Source of the DNA: Chlorobiota bacterium
GTDB taxonomy: Bacteria > Bacteroidota > Bacteroidia > Bacteroidales > JAADJA01
NCBI GenBank assembly: GCA_013151015.1
Contig: JAADJA010000078.1
Span: 1-35,938 of the forward strand
Length of the DNA stretch: 35,938 bases
Direction: 5' to 3'
The position numbers were made by a program, and so were the translations under genes. Positions within the stretch are counted from its first letter, which is position 1. Each line of letters opens with the position of its first letter. Positions 2,759 to 32,927 of this stretch are shown here, piece by piece. The notes under the pieces were generated by a model. The model was given only the letters and a program-made list of their open reading frames with translations, was not told the DNA's origin and made no database searches.

Positions 2759-3559
2759 TTATCCCCCAATATTGCTGAATCTATTCTCGGTATTAAGTGA
2801 TCCCGATTCTGGTTTATTGCCTATTGCAAGAGACAGGGCGTCTTTCGTTCCCAATTCCCGGATATCATATGCGAGGTTACTGAACAAGCAAGGTTTTATC
2901 TTGCCATCGGCCGTAAGCCGTAGCCTGTTACATTTTATACAGTCACCCCCTTCACCACCAATTACCTTTGAAAATATGCCTTTGCCGAGGTCCATTTCTT
3001 TGATGTACCTTACCTGAAGCCCTTGTTCCATACAAAACCGGCCTACCCCGAGGGCATCGGGTTCAAGAGGTGATTCCTTTACGACACAGTTAACCTTAAT
3101 GGGATATAATCCAGCATTTCGGGCTGCTTCAATCCCTTTCAGGGTATCCGACAACTCCCCTGTCCTGGTGATTTCTTTAAATTTTGAAGCATCCATTGTA
3201 TCCAAGCTGACATTTACCCTGTCAAGGCCTGCTTTCGCAAGTGGTTTCGAAAACCTGTCGAGCAAGGCACCATTTGTTGTCATGGATAAATCCGTAATTG
3301 CGGGGATACTTGACAACATCCCAACCAATTCAACGATCCCTTTCCTTACAAGCGGCTCTCCCCCTGTTATCCTGACTTTATCTATACCCAGTTTTGTCCC
3401 TACGCTCACTACATTATAAATCTCCTCAAAAGACAATATTTCTTTATGGCTGATTAAATTGACCCCACCGATCGGCATGCAATAGGAACACCTTAAGTTG
3501 CATTTGTCGGTAACTGAAATGCGCAAATAGTTGATATTTCGATTATACTTGTCGAACAT
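2759..3559 (-). CDS. moaA: short MoaA-like radical SAM protein (molybdenum cofactor synthesis)
   Basis: MoaA converts GTP to the cyclic precursor of molybdopterin, using one S-adenosylmethionine-binding [4Fe-4S] cluster and a second C-terminal cluster that binds GTP. The sequence shows the radical SAM motif CNLRCSYC near residues 20-27, the GGEP motif (VRITGGEPLVRKG), and a second-cluster region with CIKCNRLRLTADG followed by KPCLF. It ends in the Gly-Gly tail conserved in MoaA (FSNIGG). The length, 266 aa, is well below the usual 320-340 aa. The missing part lies between the barrel (YIKEMDLGKG) and the C-terminal cluster. Both clusters appear intact, so it may be a compact working variant. 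It starts 17 nt after the permease gene, at the end of the arr cluster, and fits a role in supplying cofactor for ArrA. Confidence 0.82.
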   Translation of the reverse strand: MFDKYNRNINYLRISVTDKCNLRCSYCMPIGGVNLISHKEILSFEEIYNVVSVGTKLGIDKVRITGGEPLVRKGIVELVGMLSSIPAITDLSMTTNGALLDRFSKPLAKAGLDRVNVSLDTMDASKFKEITRTGELSDTLKGIEAARNAGLYPIKVNCVVKESPLEPDALGVGRFCMEQGLQVRYIKEMDLGKGIFSKVIGGEGGDCIKCNRLRLTADGKIKPCLFSNLAYDIRELGTKDALSLAIGNKPESGSLNTENRFSNIGG

Positions 3560-4549: not shown

Positions 4550-5197
4550 TCAACCCATGCTTTTTGGAAATTCAACAAGCCCTGTCGATCTTGTAAAAAA
4601 GTCCAAGCACCTAAAAAGTGCTTTATAGTAATCATTGTCAGTTTGTTTCAGCCCATGGCCGCAAAACCCGGGCACCCATTTGTTAAAGTGTTCATTCAAG
4701 AAAATACCCTGGGCATCATGAAAGTTTTTTGCTTCACCAGGTTTTTTATCCAACAAGCTTTTTATTTCATTGAATATCAAATAGTACAAATACTCGGCCT
4801 CGACCGCAACATGATCGGGCAAATCCCTGACCCCCATATTAAAATCAAGTCCCATTTTCCTATATTGGTTCAATACCCAAATCGTATCATCCGTCATAAC
4901 AGAATCGCCCCCTAAGTAAATTGAACTATAAGGTGGGGCGAGTGTCTTGAACGGACCGACGAACAGTTGGGCATATTCTACCAGCAATTCGGTTTCGGTA
5001 AAACTGTTTAAGGATTTCTCCAAGTCTTCGACACACCCCTTATTGTCAATGTTCAGTATTCCAAATGATTTTTTAAGGGAAGCGAACAGGCCCGAACCCC
5101 TTAATACCTCATCCTCCGGCTGGCAAAAAAGCGCAGAAAACAAATTGAAGGCATTGGCCCTTGCCTCTTCTATGGCTATAAAATCTTCAAATCCCAT
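4550..5197 (-). CDS. arrD: TorD/DmsD-family chaperone for the arsenate reductase (ArrD-like)
   Basis: Members of this all-helical family bind the Tat signal peptide and apoprotein of a molybdoenzyme, and help insert the cofactor before export. The 215-aa product (from the ATG at 5197, MGFEDFIAIEEARANAF) has the typical N-terminal helix with LFSALFCQPEDEV. It also has a central LVEYAQLFVGPFKTLAPPYSSIYL (the family's Y/LF.GP...PY.S pattern) and the late H/W region ending in a C-terminal aromatic helix. An earlier in-frame ATG at 5248 would add 17 residues that look like non-coding sequence, so the shorter form is preferred. It lies 113 nt downstream of the iron-sulfur subunit gene, which marks it as that enzyme's dedicated chaperone. 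Confidence 0.8.
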   Translation of the reverse strand: MGFEDFIAIEEARANAFNLFSALFCQPEDEVLRGSGLFASLKKSFGILNIDNKGCVEDLEKSLNSFTETELLVEYAQLFVGPFKTLAPPYSSIYLGGDSVMTDDTIWVLNQYRKMGLDFNMGVRDLPDHVAVEAEYLYYLIFNEIKSLLDKKPGEAKNFHDAQGIFLNEHFNKWVPGFCGHGLKQTDNDYYKALFRCLDFFTRSTGLVEFPKSMG

Positions 5198-5310
5198 TAT
5201 ACAAGCTTTTTTTTTAGAAAGTATTAAAATAAAGAGACTTGAAAACAAGCCTCTTTATGAAAAAAAAGTTACTACACTTAATTATGTAAACGAAATTAAA
5301 ACCCCAAGCA

Positions 5311-6387
5311 CTATTTCACGACCAATATATTTGCCGTAAACGCTTTTCCACCAGCAGTCAACCTGCCAATGTAGGTGCCTGTTTTAAAATCGGAAACATC
5401 AAAATGAACCTTATGCTTGCCAAGTGGCATGCTTTCCCCGTCCATGACCTTTAAGACTTCCTTTCCTGAAATGTCGTAAATGGAAAAATGGATTTCAGAC
5501 GTTTCATTGATTTCAAACTCTGCCGTAGTGTTTCCCGAGGTAGGGTTCGGGTAAACTTTCAATTTCTCGTTTATTTTCTTGACCTCGCGCCTGTCAGAAA
5601 CACCCACATTGAAATCATTCAAATAATACACATTTGGACTGGTGCCCGCTTGCCCTTCTGGCAGCATTTCGCCCAAATTGTTTTTTAGCCGTGAATAACC
5701 ACCGGCAATCGCTACGCTTATTTCACTGTTCGGGTCGTTTAAGTCCCCAAATATACGCGCCCCTGTCGGACAAGAAACCACACAATAGGGTTGTTCCCCA
5801 TTCTGTAGCCTATGGTCACAGAATATACATTTTTCGGTTACGCCAGAAGGCCTAACTGCCCCAATATCGGGATGTGTGTATTTGTTTTTATCAGGAGGTA
5901 CGACCCCGGCCAATTGAACAATTTCTGCCGGCGTTGAAGTCCCACCAGGGATAATCGCTGTTTCATCGTCATAAAAACCCTGTGTGTTCTGCCCTGATGG
6001 GTTAAACGAAATTACCGAATACTGAACCCCATCTTGTATCGTGTATTTGGAGCTGTATGGGCAATTCGTCTGACACAACTGGCACCCGATGCACAAATCA
6101 TCATTGTGCATAGTGATCCCATCATCGGTTTTGTACATTGCCTTTGGCGTAACAGGACATACTGCCACACAAGGTGCATCTGTACAGTGGTTGCACAACA
6201 CAGGCAGTACTTTGTACTTAACATCACCTTGTGCGAAGGTACCTTCTGTGTGAGTAAAGAAGTCGGCCCAATTGTATTTGCGGCCATCCTGCTCAAATTC
6301 GGTATTATTTTCGGTTTTACAGGCTAAAGCGCAGGCTCCGCATCCCATGCACTTATGTAAATCTATCGCCATTCCATATTTTGCCAT
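5311..6387 (-). CDS. arrB: ArrB-like four-cluster ferredoxin subunit with T9SS C-terminal sorting domain
   Basis: This is the electron-transfer subunit of the arsenate reductase. Residues 1-250 are a DmsB/PsrB/ArrB-type ferredoxin. Its sixteen cysteines form four sets (13/16/19/23; 65/68/73/77; 99/102/105/109; 187/190/202/206), with signatures CMGCGACALAC, CNHCTDAPCVAVCP, CIGCQLCQTNCP and CIFC. Known ArrB proteins stop near 230-240 aa; this one has 358. The extra part, about residues 270-358, is a textbook T9SS type A sorting domain: KVYPNPTSG, then IHFSIYDISGKEVLK, then FKTGTYIGRLTAGGK, ending ILVVK. It has no signal peptide, so export would rely on the Tat signal of its partner. The gene lies 23 nt after arrA. 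An insert at about 118-186 before the last cluster is also longer than in short relatives. The single open frame argues against a sequencing join. Confidence 0.88.
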   Translation of the reverse strand: MAKYGMAIDLHKCMGCGACALACKTENNTEFEQDGRKYNWADFFTHTEGTFAQGDVKYKVLPVLCNHCTDAPCVAVCPVTPKAMYKTDDGITMHNDDLCIGCQLCQTNCPYSSKYTIQDGVQYSVISFNPSGQNTQGFYDDETAIIPGGTSTPAEIVQLAGVVPPDKNKYTHPDIGAVRPSGVTEKCIFCDHRLQNGEQPYCVVSCPTGARIFGDLNDPNSEISVAIAGGYSRLKNNLGEMLPEGQAGTSPNVYYLNDFNVGVSDRREVKKINEKLKVYPNPTSGNTTAEFEINETSEIHFSIYDISGKEVLKVMDGESMPLGKHKVHFDVSDFKTGTYIGRLTAGGKAFTANILVVK

Positions 6388-6410: not shown

Positions 6411-8921
6411 TTAAACTTTTTCAATTTTCACACCGGCAAAACCACCATTCCTGGCCGTTGCACCCGATAGTCTATCATAGTCGTCAGGTAAAACTTCGTT
6501 ATTGTTGCCCCCTTTTTCGGTAAGGCTGGCATAATTACTGGCAAATCTTCCATAGGCCCAGTGGCCCCCGCCAAATGTTTTGCCAACGGTTCCTGGCCGG
6601 ACACCCTCCCATAACCTGACAATCGTGGTAAGACTCCCGGTTTCTGATGTAACCAATACATTGTCACCATCTGCAACCCCAATAGATGCAGCATCGGAGG
6701 GGTTCATTTTTATGCAGTCCTCCCAATTATGGTCTCCTGGATCGAGCTTTTTAAACTGGTAGTACCAGGGTAGGTTCTGGCTTCTCCCCTCCCGGTTAAA
6801 ACGGGATTTGATATCTATGAAATCAAAAGGATACTCGCCATTGCTACCCCACCGCCTCGGTGTTTCGTAATGAGGGACGAAAGCAAGTTCGCCCTGCGCC
6901 TCATAATTACATTCCGATAATACTGTATCGATATCCGACCCATGTTTATCGGCATGATCCTGAAGTGCTTCTTTAAGTGTTTCGCTGTAAAACTCAAATT
7001 TACCGGTAGCTGTTCCAAAATTCCCGCCCCAGTGGGTTTTAAACGTGTAAGGCCCTGTCGTAACCACGCCTTTCTGCAAAAATTCCTCCCAACCTCCGGC
7101 TAAACTGTCATAGGATGGTTTGGTAAAGATACGGGTCGCAAATAATGCAAACTCTTCTTCATTTTGAGGGGAAACCCCTGATTCAGGGTCAGAAAACTCA
7201 TTTACATAATAATCGTACAAATTGGAAAATCCTTTTTCCTGCAATTTTTTTGCAAGCATAAAAGGTATTTCGTTCTCATCGCCCTTTACATCATACAATT
7301 TGTTGATCATAGGCTGCTGGATCGAGACTTCCGTATGTAGGTTCCCATGTGTCTTCACGTAGGACGATTTTTCAACGGTACTGAAAGCAGCCGGAAGGAC
7401 GATATCGGCAAATTGCGTTGTTTCTGAAGCATTTGTTGTGATATGTGCAAAAAACGGAAGTGCCGAAAGGGCATCATACCATCTTTGGGGTTGCGTTCCT
7501 GAAAATGAGAAATTACACCAATTGCCGATCACCACTTTTATATCATAAGGGTCGGCGGCCAACATGGCATTGGCCACATTATTCGTTACAACACCTTTGC
7601 CCGAATGTTTTTTCATTGCAGGCATCCTGAATGTCCCACGTTGATCGATTTTATGGTATTCAAGTCCTTCGAGGGCTATTGCATCCTGATAGGAACTATA
7701 ATCTGGTATGCCGCTGGTAGAAGATGACACAGTCCTGATTGGCCCACCATAATTATCAACAGACCCTAGCAGGGCATTGAGGGCGTAAATGGCCATGCCC
7801 GTGTAAGTCCCCCTTGGGTTCATAACCGGCCCGGGGCCATACCAAACAGCAACATTGGGGGCTTGCGCCGCCATATTGGCTGCAACTTCTTCGATTTCCC
7901 CTTGTGAAATGCCAGTAACACCTGCGGCCCATTCCGGGGTCTTGTCCTTTAGCTCAATATTCCACCATTTTACCAAACCACTTGATTCTACTTCCGTGAA
8001 ATCATTTTCGTTTACAACAGTATTTGCCGTAAATTCAGAAACCCCGTTCCCGTTAAAATCGCCAACAAATTCTTTATGCCACAATCCATTCACGAGAATG
8101 TGGTGCGCCATAGCAGAAGCCAATGCCCCATCTTCCCCGGGTTTTACGGCCAACCACCTGTCTGACTTGGCCGCAGCCCCCGTCAATACAGGATCGATGG
8201 TCACAACAGTTGCATTTTCCTTGACCTGGGCCCATTTGCTCATGGCGTTCGGGACCTGTCTGTTCGACCTGAACGGATCAACGCCCCACAAAACAAGGTA
8301 TTTTGTGTTGACGAGGTCATAATCCCTATATCCCCAAAAGGCTTCCGTCCAATAACTCCCTGCTTTTTCGGCCTCGGCACAAATAGAACTGTGCGAAATG
8401 CCGTTTGGAGACCCAAATATCTTAGGGAGACTTTTATAAAGGATATCCCTGCTATAAGAATACCGCCCCCGTAAATACAAGAATTTATGTGTTTCATTTG
8501 CGTTGCGCAATTCCATCATTTTTTCGGCAATGGTATCCAATGCCTCGTCCCATGTAATGGGCACAAATTGAGGATCGATGCCTTTTCCTTTTACAGGGTT
8601 TGTCCGTTTCATCGGAACTTTTAAACGATCTGGGTCATAAACCTGTTTTGGGATCATATGGCCTCTCGGGCAACATTGTCCGGGGTTAGTGGATGAATTT
8701 TGATTGCCACGGACTTTTACCGCCCTTCCATCCTGGACAAATACTTCAATCGGGCACCATGTTGTACATCCCTGACAGGTTGAAGGAATCCAATCGCCTT
8801 CATACAAACGGGCCTTTTCAGCTGTAAGGGCAGAAAATGCTTCCAATGTCGGACTAAAAGTAAATGCCCCGGCCCCGAGGACACCAAAAGTTTTAAGAAA
8901 ATCCCTGCGTTTTACTTTCAT
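6411..8921 (-). CDS. arrA: respiratory arsenate reductase catalytic subunit ArrA-like (molybdopterin, Tat signal)
   Basis: The 836-aa catalytic subunit of the DMSO-reductase superfamily is predicted to reduce arsenate to arsenite outside the cytoplasm. A twin-arginine signal opens the protein (MKVKRRDFLKTFG). The [4Fe-4S] cysteines follow as C49-x2-C52-x3-C56-x27-C84 within STCQGCTTWCPIEVFVQDG, the ArrA-type pattern. ArrA-specific marks include RGRY at 151-154 (the related ArxA differs here), SHSSICAEAEK with Cys181 as likely molybdenum ligand, Lys186, and Tyr198 (FWGYRDYDL). With a constant offset of 12 these match the active-site residues I recall from the Shewanella ANA-3 structure (R165, Y166, C193, K198, Y210). 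The stretches KEFVGDF and KTPEWA match those used for arrA PCR primers. arrB follows at 23 nt. It has no T9SS tail of its own. Polysulfide or thiosulfate reductase is a less likely alternative. Confidence 0.87.
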   Translation of the reverse strand: MKVKRRDFLKTFGVLGAGAFTFSPTLEAFSALTAEKARLYEGDWIPSTCQGCTTWCPIEVFVQDGRAVKVRGNQNSSTNPGQCCPRGHMIPKQVYDPDRLKVPMKRTNPVKGKGIDPQFVPITWDEALDTIAEKMMELRNANETHKFLYLRGRYSYSRDILYKSLPKIFGSPNGISHSSICAEAEKAGSYWTEAFWGYRDYDLVNTKYLVLWGVDPFRSNRQVPNAMSKWAQVKENATVVTIDPVLTGAAAKSDRWLAVKPGEDGALASAMAHHILVNGLWHKEFVGDFNGNGVSEFTANTVVNENDFTEVESSGLVKWWNIELKDKTPEWAAGVTGISQGEIEEVAANMAAQAPNVAVWYGPGPVMNPRGTYTGMAIYALNALLGSVDNYGGPIRTVSSSTSGIPDYSSYQDAIALEGLEYHKIDQRGTFRMPAMKKHSGKGVVTNNVANAMLAADPYDIKVVIGNWCNFSFSGTQPQRWYDALSALPFFAHITTNASETTQFADIVLPAAFSTVEKSSYVKTHGNLHTEVSIQQPMINKLYDVKGDENEIPFMLAKKLQEKGFSNLYDYYVNEFSDPESGVSPQNEEEFALFATRIFTKPSYDSLAGGWEEFLQKGVVTTGPYTFKTHWGGNFGTATGKFEFYSETLKEALQDHADKHGSDIDTVLSECNYEAQGELAFVPHYETPRRWGSNGEYPFDFIDIKSRFNREGRSQNLPWYYQFKKLDPGDHNWEDCIKMNPSDAASIGVADGDNVLVTSETGSLTTIVRLWEGVRPGTVGKTFGGGHWAYGRFASNYASLTEKGGNNNEVLPDDYDRLSGATARNGGFAGVKIEKV

Positions 8922-31307: not shown

Positions 31308-32927
31308 ATGAAAAAACTTTTCCTATCAACTGCCATTATTTTGGTTATGGCACTCATCAATGTTTCCTATGCCGATGGCCTCGAAACATTTGAAAACTAC
31401 CCTGAAATAGGAAACTCCTATCAGGACGGAACTTTCCCAGGGCTTGACGGCTCTACATGGGAATACTGGCAATGCCGCGGCGACCAGCCCATTGACGAAC
31501 AATCACCTTGTCTTGGAAAAGACAGGACACCAACGGCCGAAGTTACTTCAGGAACTATTTCCGGTGGGTTTGGAACGATCAGCTTTGATTATATGCAAGC
31601 CTTTTCAACAGGTGTGAACCTTGATGTTTTCGTGAATGACATCCTTGTTGGCAATGTAACATCAAGCGGTGAACAAGGAGTTGTTTTGAATTCGGGTGAC
31701 ATCACCGTTGATATCGAAGGTGATGTTTACATTTCCTTTATCCAGAACAACAGCGGTGCGGGTCAGGTGAGCATCGACAATTTCGCTTATACGAGCTTTG
31801 GTGGGGGAACGCCCGATCCCGAACCCACCAACTATCCAACAACTTTCACGGCAACGGCAAATGCCACCGACATTAACCTTTCATGGACAGATGCAACAGG
31901 CGACCAGCTTCCTTCAAAATACATTATTTTTGGTGGAACCTCAGCCAGTCTTCCCGTTCCTGTGGACGGAACCCCCATTACCAATGATGCCGACCTTTCA
32001 GATGGAAGCGGTGCCCTTAACATTTCATATGGGGTTGAAACTGCAATGTTTGCCGGACTAACAGCGAACACAACCTATTATTTCACTATTTACCCTTACA
32101 CCAATTTTGGGACAAACGTTGATTACAAAACCGATGGAACTGCCCCGGCTGATGAAGCGACAATTGGCAATATCGTAGTGGTTGAATCCCACAACTTTGA
32201 TGATTACTCCTTTGGCAACTGGACAAAAATTTCGGTTATCGGTGACCAGGAATGGGTCATTGATTCCATCTATGGTGTAAATGGTACCCCTTGTACGAAA
32301 ATGAGCGGTTATGCAGGCGGGTCCAACGAAAACGAAGATTGGTTGATTTCACCTATGCTTAACCTCGACACATTTACAGCTGCCAATATTGCCTTTGCCA
32401 ACGCAATGAACTACACAGGAAATGACTTGGAATTAAAAGTTTCGACCGATTATGATGGAGGTGGCGATCCCAATTCCGCTACATGGACAAGCCTGAGCTA
32501 CACTATGTCGCCCGGTTCTTGGTCATGGGTCGAATCTGGAACTGTTGACCTTAGTACTTACATTGGCCCATCCGTTTATGTGGCATTTTTCTATACAAGT
32601 ACCGCAGATGGATCAGCTACCTGGGAAATTGACAATATCGTAGTAAAAGGTGAAACCGAAGTAGGGATCAATAACCTATCTGATGTTGCAGCACAGATTT
32701 CTGTTTTCCCCAACCCTTCTTCAGGAATGGTACAAATCAGCAAGTCAATAAATGGTTTCTCACATGTTAGGGTTATGGCCATCACGGGAAGCATCGTGAA
32801 ACAAGCTGAATTAAACAGTGAATTATCCACACTCGACCTTCGTGATCTGGAAACAGGGATTTATTTCATGACATTCTCTGACGAAAACAGCAAACAACAA
32901 GTCAGTAAAAAACTGATTATCCAATAA
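31308..32927 (+). CDS. large T9SS-secreted protein with fibronectin III and choice-of-anchor J-like domains
   Basis: A 539-aa exported protein. After the signal peptide (MKKLFLSTAIILVMALINVS) comes a beta-sandwich region to about residue 165 (FGTISFDYMQAFSTGVNLDV). A proline-rich joint GGGTPDPEPTNYP leads into a fibronectin III-like module (LSWTDATGDQLPSKYIIF, then GLTANTTYYFTIYPY). Next is a choice-of-anchor J/MAM-like domain (ESHNFDDYSFGNWTKISV, NEDWLISPMLNLD). The last 80 residues are a T9SS type A sorting domain (ISVFPNPSSGMVQISK, LDLRDLETGIYFMTF, ending KKLIIQ). It would be anchored on, or released from, the cell surface. No catalytic motif was found; carbohydrate or protein binding is possible. 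Confidence 0.85.
   Translation: MKKLFLSTAIILVMALINVSYADGLETFENYPEIGNSYQDGTFPGLDGSTWEYWQCRGDQPIDEQSPCLGKDRTPTAEVTSGTISGGFGTISFDYMQAFSTGVNLDVFVNDILVGNVTSSGEQGVVLNSGDITVDIEGDVYISFIQNNSGAGQVSIDNFAYTSFGGGTPDPEPTNYPTTFTATANATDINLSWTDATGDQLPSKYIIFGGTSASLPVPVDGTPITNDADLSDGSGALNISYGVETAMFAGLTANTTYYFTIYPYTNFGTNVDYKTDGTAPADEATIGNIVVVESHNFDDYSFGNWTKISVIGDQEWVIDSIYGVNGTPCTKMSGYAGGSNENEDWLISPMLNLDTFTAANIAFANAMNYTGNDLELKVSTDYDGGGDPNSATWTSLSYTMSPGSWSWVESGTVDLSTYIGPSVYVAFFYTSTADGSATWEIDNIVVKGETEVGINNLSDVAAQISVFPNPSSGMVQISKSINGFSHVRVMAITGSIVKQAELNSELSTLDLRDLETGIYFMTFSDENSKQQVSKKLIIQ

Follow-up and report, generated by a model that had tools for sequence, protein, structure and literature searches.

The iron-sulfur subunit (ArrB) of an ArrAB-type arsenate reductase ends, in the window (the whole stretch of DNA analysed, 35,938 nucleotides of contig JAADJA010000078.1 from a Chlorobiota bacterium, genome G000 in our survey), in a type A sorting domain of the type IX secretion system (T9SS). 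The domain is no artefact, recurs among relatives and is under selection. Its best explanation, which we hold to be probable, is that the folded ArrAB complex would be exported in two steps, first by the twin-arginine translocation (Tat) pathway and then by T9SS to the cell surface. Such a two-step export had been put forward in the original prediction and is supported, at the level of sequences, by a tail that is carried by ArrA or by ArrB and never by both, that is limited to one phylum in the pairs seen and that is under purifying selection. Further support comes from the loss of the tail, with a probable remnant, in a relative (L066) in which T9SS was not detected, and from the absence of NrfD-type genes near the tailed pairs.

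The open reading frame of 358 amino acids lies on the minus strand (5311-6387), has no internal stop and can be divided into three parts. The core (residues 1-261, positions 5605-6387, minus strand) is a four [4Fe-4S] ferredoxin whose best NCBIfam match is the ArrB model NF041715 (residues 3-261, 220.5 bits, under the curated cut-off of 450). The linker (residues 262-275, positions 5563-5604, minus strand) is followed by the sorting domain (residues 276-358 with the stop codon, positions 5311-5562, minus strand), which forms the very C-terminal end of the chain and is matched above cut-off by both TIGR04183 (residues 278-356, 41.1 bits, cut-off 23) and PF18962 (residues 278-354, 42.8 bits, cut-off 27). 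All the motifs quoted in the original prediction of a type A tail in one frame with ArrB occur in the translation. As it had also stated, no signal peptide precedes the core, since the N-terminus, read by eye, begins at the first cluster motif. In an AlphaFold model computed with 24 ArrB sequences (mean pLDDT 68.9), residues 276-356 are predicted to be all-beta with seven strands and are separated from the ArrB core by a linker at 261-274 with pLDDT below 50; folded alone, the core of the tail has block means of 90-95 in pLDDT. A Foldseek search with the whole window ArrB placed 6cz7_B, the ArrB of Shewanella, on top and the T9SS C-terminal domain (CTD) of mirolase (8qb1) at rank 15. With the tail alone, Foldseek gave many Ig-like matches with E values from about 1e-3 upwards, none reaching 0.001, and 8qb1 at rank 19, so that the predicted fold agrees with a T9SS tail and by itself identifies nothing.

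Upstream of arrB on the same strand, arrA (6411-8921, minus strand) encodes the molybdopterin catalytic subunit. Its best NCBIfam match is NF041714 (1012.9 bits, under the cut-off of 1600), and residues 34-836 align with the solved Shewanella ArrA (6cz7_A) at 889 bits. Both subunits score below the curated cut-offs, and we therefore use the name ArrAB on the grounds of the best family and a near full-length alignment; the identity as an arsenate reductase is thus an assignment by homology, to the ArrAB type. The twin-arginine signal claimed for ArrA was found as the motif RRDFLK at residues 5-10, together with a weak PF10518 match (19.0 bits, under the cut-off of 22.7), and ArrB has no such motif. 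Downstream of arrB follow genes for a TorD-type chaperone (4550-5248, minus strand; PF02613, 89.2 bits, cut-off 22.2), a TauE-family transporter and a MoaA-like protein. The chaperone probably begins at the ATG at 5197, where its homologue in the congeneric genome G016 starts. The MoaA-like protein (2759-3559, minus strand) has only 266 residues, matches TIGR02666 at 271 bits, under the cut-off of 284, and seems to lack an inner part.

The congeneric genome G016 shares this fusion architecture, with 96% identity across the 358 residues and the same neighbour genes. In a whole-protein search of 99 genomes including G000, 86 gave some match at E 0.001, and among the matches listed only those in G000 and G016 covered all 358 residues; the gene is present in 2 of the 17 genomes of the genus. 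The next best of the matches listed (L033) is a ferredoxin of 357 residues that has its own twin-arginine motif and lacks a tail. Between the window and G016, the tail shows 13 synonymous and 3 non-synonymous changes (dN/dS 0.055), and the probability of three or fewer non-synonymous changes among 16 under neutrality is 8e-7: the ArrB tail is under purifying selection. The corresponding dN/dS values are 0.128 for the ArrB core, 0.056 for ArrA and 0.45 for the linker, which has three differences. A tail matched by chance was considered and ruled out by both HMM libraries and this purifying selection.

The survey of tails was based on ArrA searches at 1e-90. In the phylum, 2 of 395 genomes gave a match; in the class to which G454 belongs the figure was 10 of 391, in the order of the window 5 of 393 and in the G692 family 7 of 54. 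These sets overlap and include the own genome or the one on which the set was centred. From named genomes, 80 of 229 ArrA relatives were retained. Altogether 19 distinct ArrA-bearing genomes of the phylum were obtained (including G016 and that of L139, which is placed in the phylum through the title of its record), of which 18 could be judged, the contig of G498 ending inside ArrA. Exactly one tail was found in 13 of these 18 ArrAB pairs and a tail on both subunits in none. It is carried by ArrB in seven genomes (G000, G016, G832, G961, G454, G615 and G1097), by ArrA in six (G692, G694, G660, G558, G533 and G1094) and by neither subunit in five (G520, G753, G787, G818 and the genome of L139). 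Our own tail model, built from 15 other T9SS cargo proteins of G000, was positive for 8 of the 95 rows of ArrA and 7 of the 91 rows of ArrB; these counts include duplicate records and leave G1094 and G1097 aside. TIGR04183 and PF18962 matched all of the 11 tails given to them, and the tails of G1094 and G1097 were scored by our own model only. Tails are retained on ArrB proteins of 48-56% identity to that of the window.

Outside the phylum, which holds, judged by record titles, for 73 of the 80 loci (the records of L087, L105 and L117 give no phylum), none of the 69 pairs with both genes read to the stop carries a tail, the other four being cut off or without ArrB; in this these ArrAB pairs differ from the window ArrB with its sorting domain. 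The absence of a tail is less sure for L081, L107, L125, L127 and L138, whose frame is broken, short or masked, and no ArrA piece of these five extends past the end of the family. Comparing 13 tailed and 5 tailless pairs with 0 and 69, a Fisher test yields 8e-12, the related rows not being independent. Finally, in 11 further relatives' loci, which are listed matches with long open frames and represent a sample and not a survey, our own model found no tailed ArrB-like or ArrA-like ORF, its single match there being another protein.

In G000, the T9SS proteins SprA (TIGR04189, 2573.3 bits) and PorU (NF033707, 1285.2 bits) were detected. The search of ArrB homologues in Bacteroidota for the sorting domain and its co-occurrence with T9SS genes, which the original prediction had called for, gave the seven genomes with a tail on ArrB, five of them beyond G000 and G016, and SprA and PorU above cut-off in 11 of the 11 tailed genomes tested (G1094 and G1097 stood outside this test). 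Both proteins also exceed the cut-off in G498 and in the five genomes of the phylum that lack a tail. Among 14 control genomes, the SprA model matched none and the PorU model two, both under cut-off. TatC is present in G000 (165.4 bits, cut-off 132.7) and above cut-off in 14 of 16 genomes tested, of which 9 of the 11 tailed ones; it was not found in G016 (86% complete) and G961 (79% complete).

The relative L066, a bin assigned to Planctomycetota, has an ArrA 75% identical to that of the window and a tailless ArrB that ends at residue 260. In its genome, whose completeness is not stated, no match to SprA, PorU or TIGR04183 was found. L066 is nested in the ArrB-tailed clade with SH-aLRT support of 100 for a five-row and 90 for a four-row clade. 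After its ArrB stop codon, in another frame (8055-8290), the motif VYPNPA stands near the expected start of a tail. Among 300 shuffles for each comparison, the local score of this stretch was reached 2 times with the window tail, 9 with that of G832, 0 with G961 and 41 with G615, that is, the similarity is significant for two of the four ArrB tails, marginal for a third and not significant for the fourth. The stretch is probably a decayed T9SS tail, for which these comparisons are suggestive and not a proof. The flanks of L066 are closer in tetranucleotides to all six sampled contigs of its own genome than to the Bacteroidota samples, which argues against misbinning. In a tree of 50 ArrA cores, selected among the rows and trimmed of their tails, the 11 tailed rows fall in one 13-row clade (support 97) whose other two members, G520 and L066, are tailless; the five ArrA-tailed rows group together (97), and the fewest changes of tail state amount to three. 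This one clade and its minimum of three changes point to few independent events: two acquisitions or a switch, plus losses.

These data also bear on the alternative that the tail is a passive addition, brought by recombination in a genome rich in T9SS cargo and left unused, the complex staying in the periplasm. Donors abound, as G000 has at least 150 TIGR04183 matches. Two further proteins of the window have a T9SS tail: a thioredoxin/peroxiredoxin-like protein (PF00578; 13007-13831, minus strand; TIGR04183, 37.9 bits), a few kb from arrAB, and a choice-of-anchor J protein (31308-32927, plus strand). This alternative would also suit the tailless and unanchored pairs of G520 and G753, two genomes that do bear T9SS. 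However, a passive tail is hard to reconcile with the purifying selection on it, with its retention on ArrB proteins about half identical to that of the window, with its presence on ArrA instead in six genomes and with its disappearance, leaving a probable decayed remnant, where T9SS was not detected. We thus consider an unused tail unlikely.

The anchoring of the pairs was considered in the same way. An NrfD-type gene is absent from the DNA examined around all 13 tailed pairs and accompanies three of the phylum's five tailless pairs (G787, G818 and L139). G520 and G753 have neither a tail nor an NrfD gene nearby, yet they have SprA and PorU, which we count against two-step export; they are exceptions to any simple rule of tail or anchor. 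L105, from a genome with SprA and PorU, is tailless and has an NrfD gene. Tail and anchor are both missing from many pairs outside the phylum, so that the unanchored state alone does not call for a tail. We do not claim that a porin gene takes the place of the tail in tailless pairs: of the five scanned, one has a clear Porin_O_P gene (L139, 1638-2900, just upstream of its tailless, NrfD-anchored arr operon), the neighbours of two others give weak barrel matches under cut-off (L165 and L169) and those of the last two match nothing.

A second alternative accepts the two-step export and changes the enzyme, which would be a related molybdoenzyme with a different oxyanion or a sulfur compound as its substrate, or would work as an arsenite oxidase. 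It draws on the scores below the curated cut-offs for both subunits and on the TauE-family gene two genes downstream of arrB. Against it, ArrA is both the best family and the full-length match of the window protein, and the motif RGRY, which we take to mark ArrA rather than ArxA, is present in 95 of 95 ArrA rows; no open-licence paper on an ArxA motif was found. Arsenic genes are also near: ArsC is encoded in the window and beside the pair of G520, and in G961 genes for ArsR, ArsC and Acr3 (L168, 2844-4798) lie about 4 kb upstream of the tailed arrAB, the Acr3 gene spanning two overlapping frames and containing masked bases. Another substrate is accordingly improbable, a shade more so than an unused tail. 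An assembly or sequencing artefact was rejected and has a negligible probability: the own genome is a draft of 237 contigs, but the ArrB fusion occurs in seven genomes including that of the window, the six others among them G016 with its 96% identical copy, and synonymous changes dominate in the tail, which excludes the frameshift or misassembly that the original prediction had raised.

Returning to export by Tat and then T9SS, we infer the passage of the complex, its surface location, the processing of its tail, its electron donor and its activity from the features described above. ArrA and ArrB would load their cofactors and pair in the cytoplasm with the assistance of the TorD-type chaperone, and the twin-arginine signal of ArrA would bring the folded pair across the inner membrane by Tat, the signal-less ArrB travelling as a hitchhiker. 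In the periplasm, T9SS would recognise the folded tail, the AB complex would pass through SprA, and PorU would cut off the tail and attach the complex to the surface. There, supplied with electrons through an outer-membrane path, it would reduce extracellular arsenate. The distribution of signals and tails fits such a relay. Indeed, a twin-arginine motif is present in 12 of the 12 readable ArrA N-termini of tailed pairs, and all 13 ArrB proteins of these pairs begin directly at the first cluster motif. Motif and T9SS tail stand on one chain in five of the six tailed ArrA proteins, the sixth, of G1094, being cut at its start. A tail on either ArrA or ArrB, and never on both, suggests that either subunit can bring about the same effect, which is what joint travel of the pair would predict; the shift of the tail between subunits would then be a natural test that the cargo is the complex and not the chain. 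We consider it fairly likely that such a Tat-to-T9SS relay moves, as one unit of cargo, a respiratory enzyme of two subunits that is already assembled and loaded with its cofactors. The sorting domain could then be placed on either subunit, the chain that bears it would not require its own signal peptide, and the arsenate reductase would come to lie on the outer surface.

The window protein resembles known T9SS type A cargo in its C-terminal domain above both cut-offs, its seven predicted strands and the mirolase CTD among its Foldseek matches. It differs in its signal: such cargo is described with a Sec signal, whereas the tailed ArrB of the window has none and its partner ArrA has a twin-arginine motif. 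In the sections drawn on here, PMC9251779 describes T9SS as moving folded cargo, with substrates that carry a Sec signal, and PMC12618676 likewise describes its substrates with a Sec signal. According to PMC11285876, T9SS tails can be specific to their host. The words 'Tat' and 'twin-arginine' are absent from the main text of PMC12618676 and of the review PMC10202324, and no report of a T9SS tail on an arsenate reductase was found in the open-licence literature searched. The ArrAB mentioned in the Kapabacteria bin Ch6 (PMC7509429) is of the ArrAB type and comes from a group that holds many tailed pairs; a tail or an export route is not mentioned in the part of that article considered here.

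Among characterised enzymes, the ArrAB of Shewanella sp. ANA-3 (PDB 6cz7) is a close likeness, through the ArrA alignment and the top Foldseek match of ArrB. Shewanella ArrAB is periplasmic and fed by CymA. A surface location has been described for another enzyme, the DmsAB of Shewanella oneidensis, which, according to the portion of PMC9048795 used here, lies at the outer face via type II secretion and is fed by the DmsEF conduit. The window would differ from it in the second step, with a T9SS tail instead of type II secretion, and in the conduit, as no conduit gene adjoins its operon and the listed ORFs flanking arrAB include no multihaem protein.

If true, the reading proposed here would add a new route by which a respiratory enzyme is placed on the cell surface. 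The exports of T9SS would include, besides single chains delivered by Sec, folded metalloenzymes of several subunits delivered by Tat, and Bacteroidota would have a means of surface respiration comparable to that which type II secretion gives Shewanella through DmsAB. As the original prediction had supposed, an outer-surface reductase could act on mineral-bound arsenate and leave arsenite outside the cell, which would bear on the release of arsenic from sediments.

Concerning the electron path, the search of G000 beyond the window used PF03264 and PF13435. Neither G000 nor G016 has a NapC/NirT cytochrome above cut-off, which weighs against the proposed export. Both genomes encode an octaheme cytochrome of 505 residues with a Sec-like start and a T9SS tail (L202, 544-2058, on contig C214 of G000, and L201 in G016); that of G000 matches the MtrC/MtrF-type domain PF22113 at 40.4 bits (cut-off 30). 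This tailed cytochrome of the same genome may perhaps feed ArrAB at the surface. Larger cytochromes with T9SS tails are encoded in G558, one with nine and one with at least 12 hemes (L204 and L207), both matching PF22113. As to the surroundings of arrA in other genomes, a gene for an NtrC-type response regulator adjoins it in G454 (L063, 12082-13431), and genes similar in length and start adjoin it in L158, L160, L164, L165, L168 and L213.
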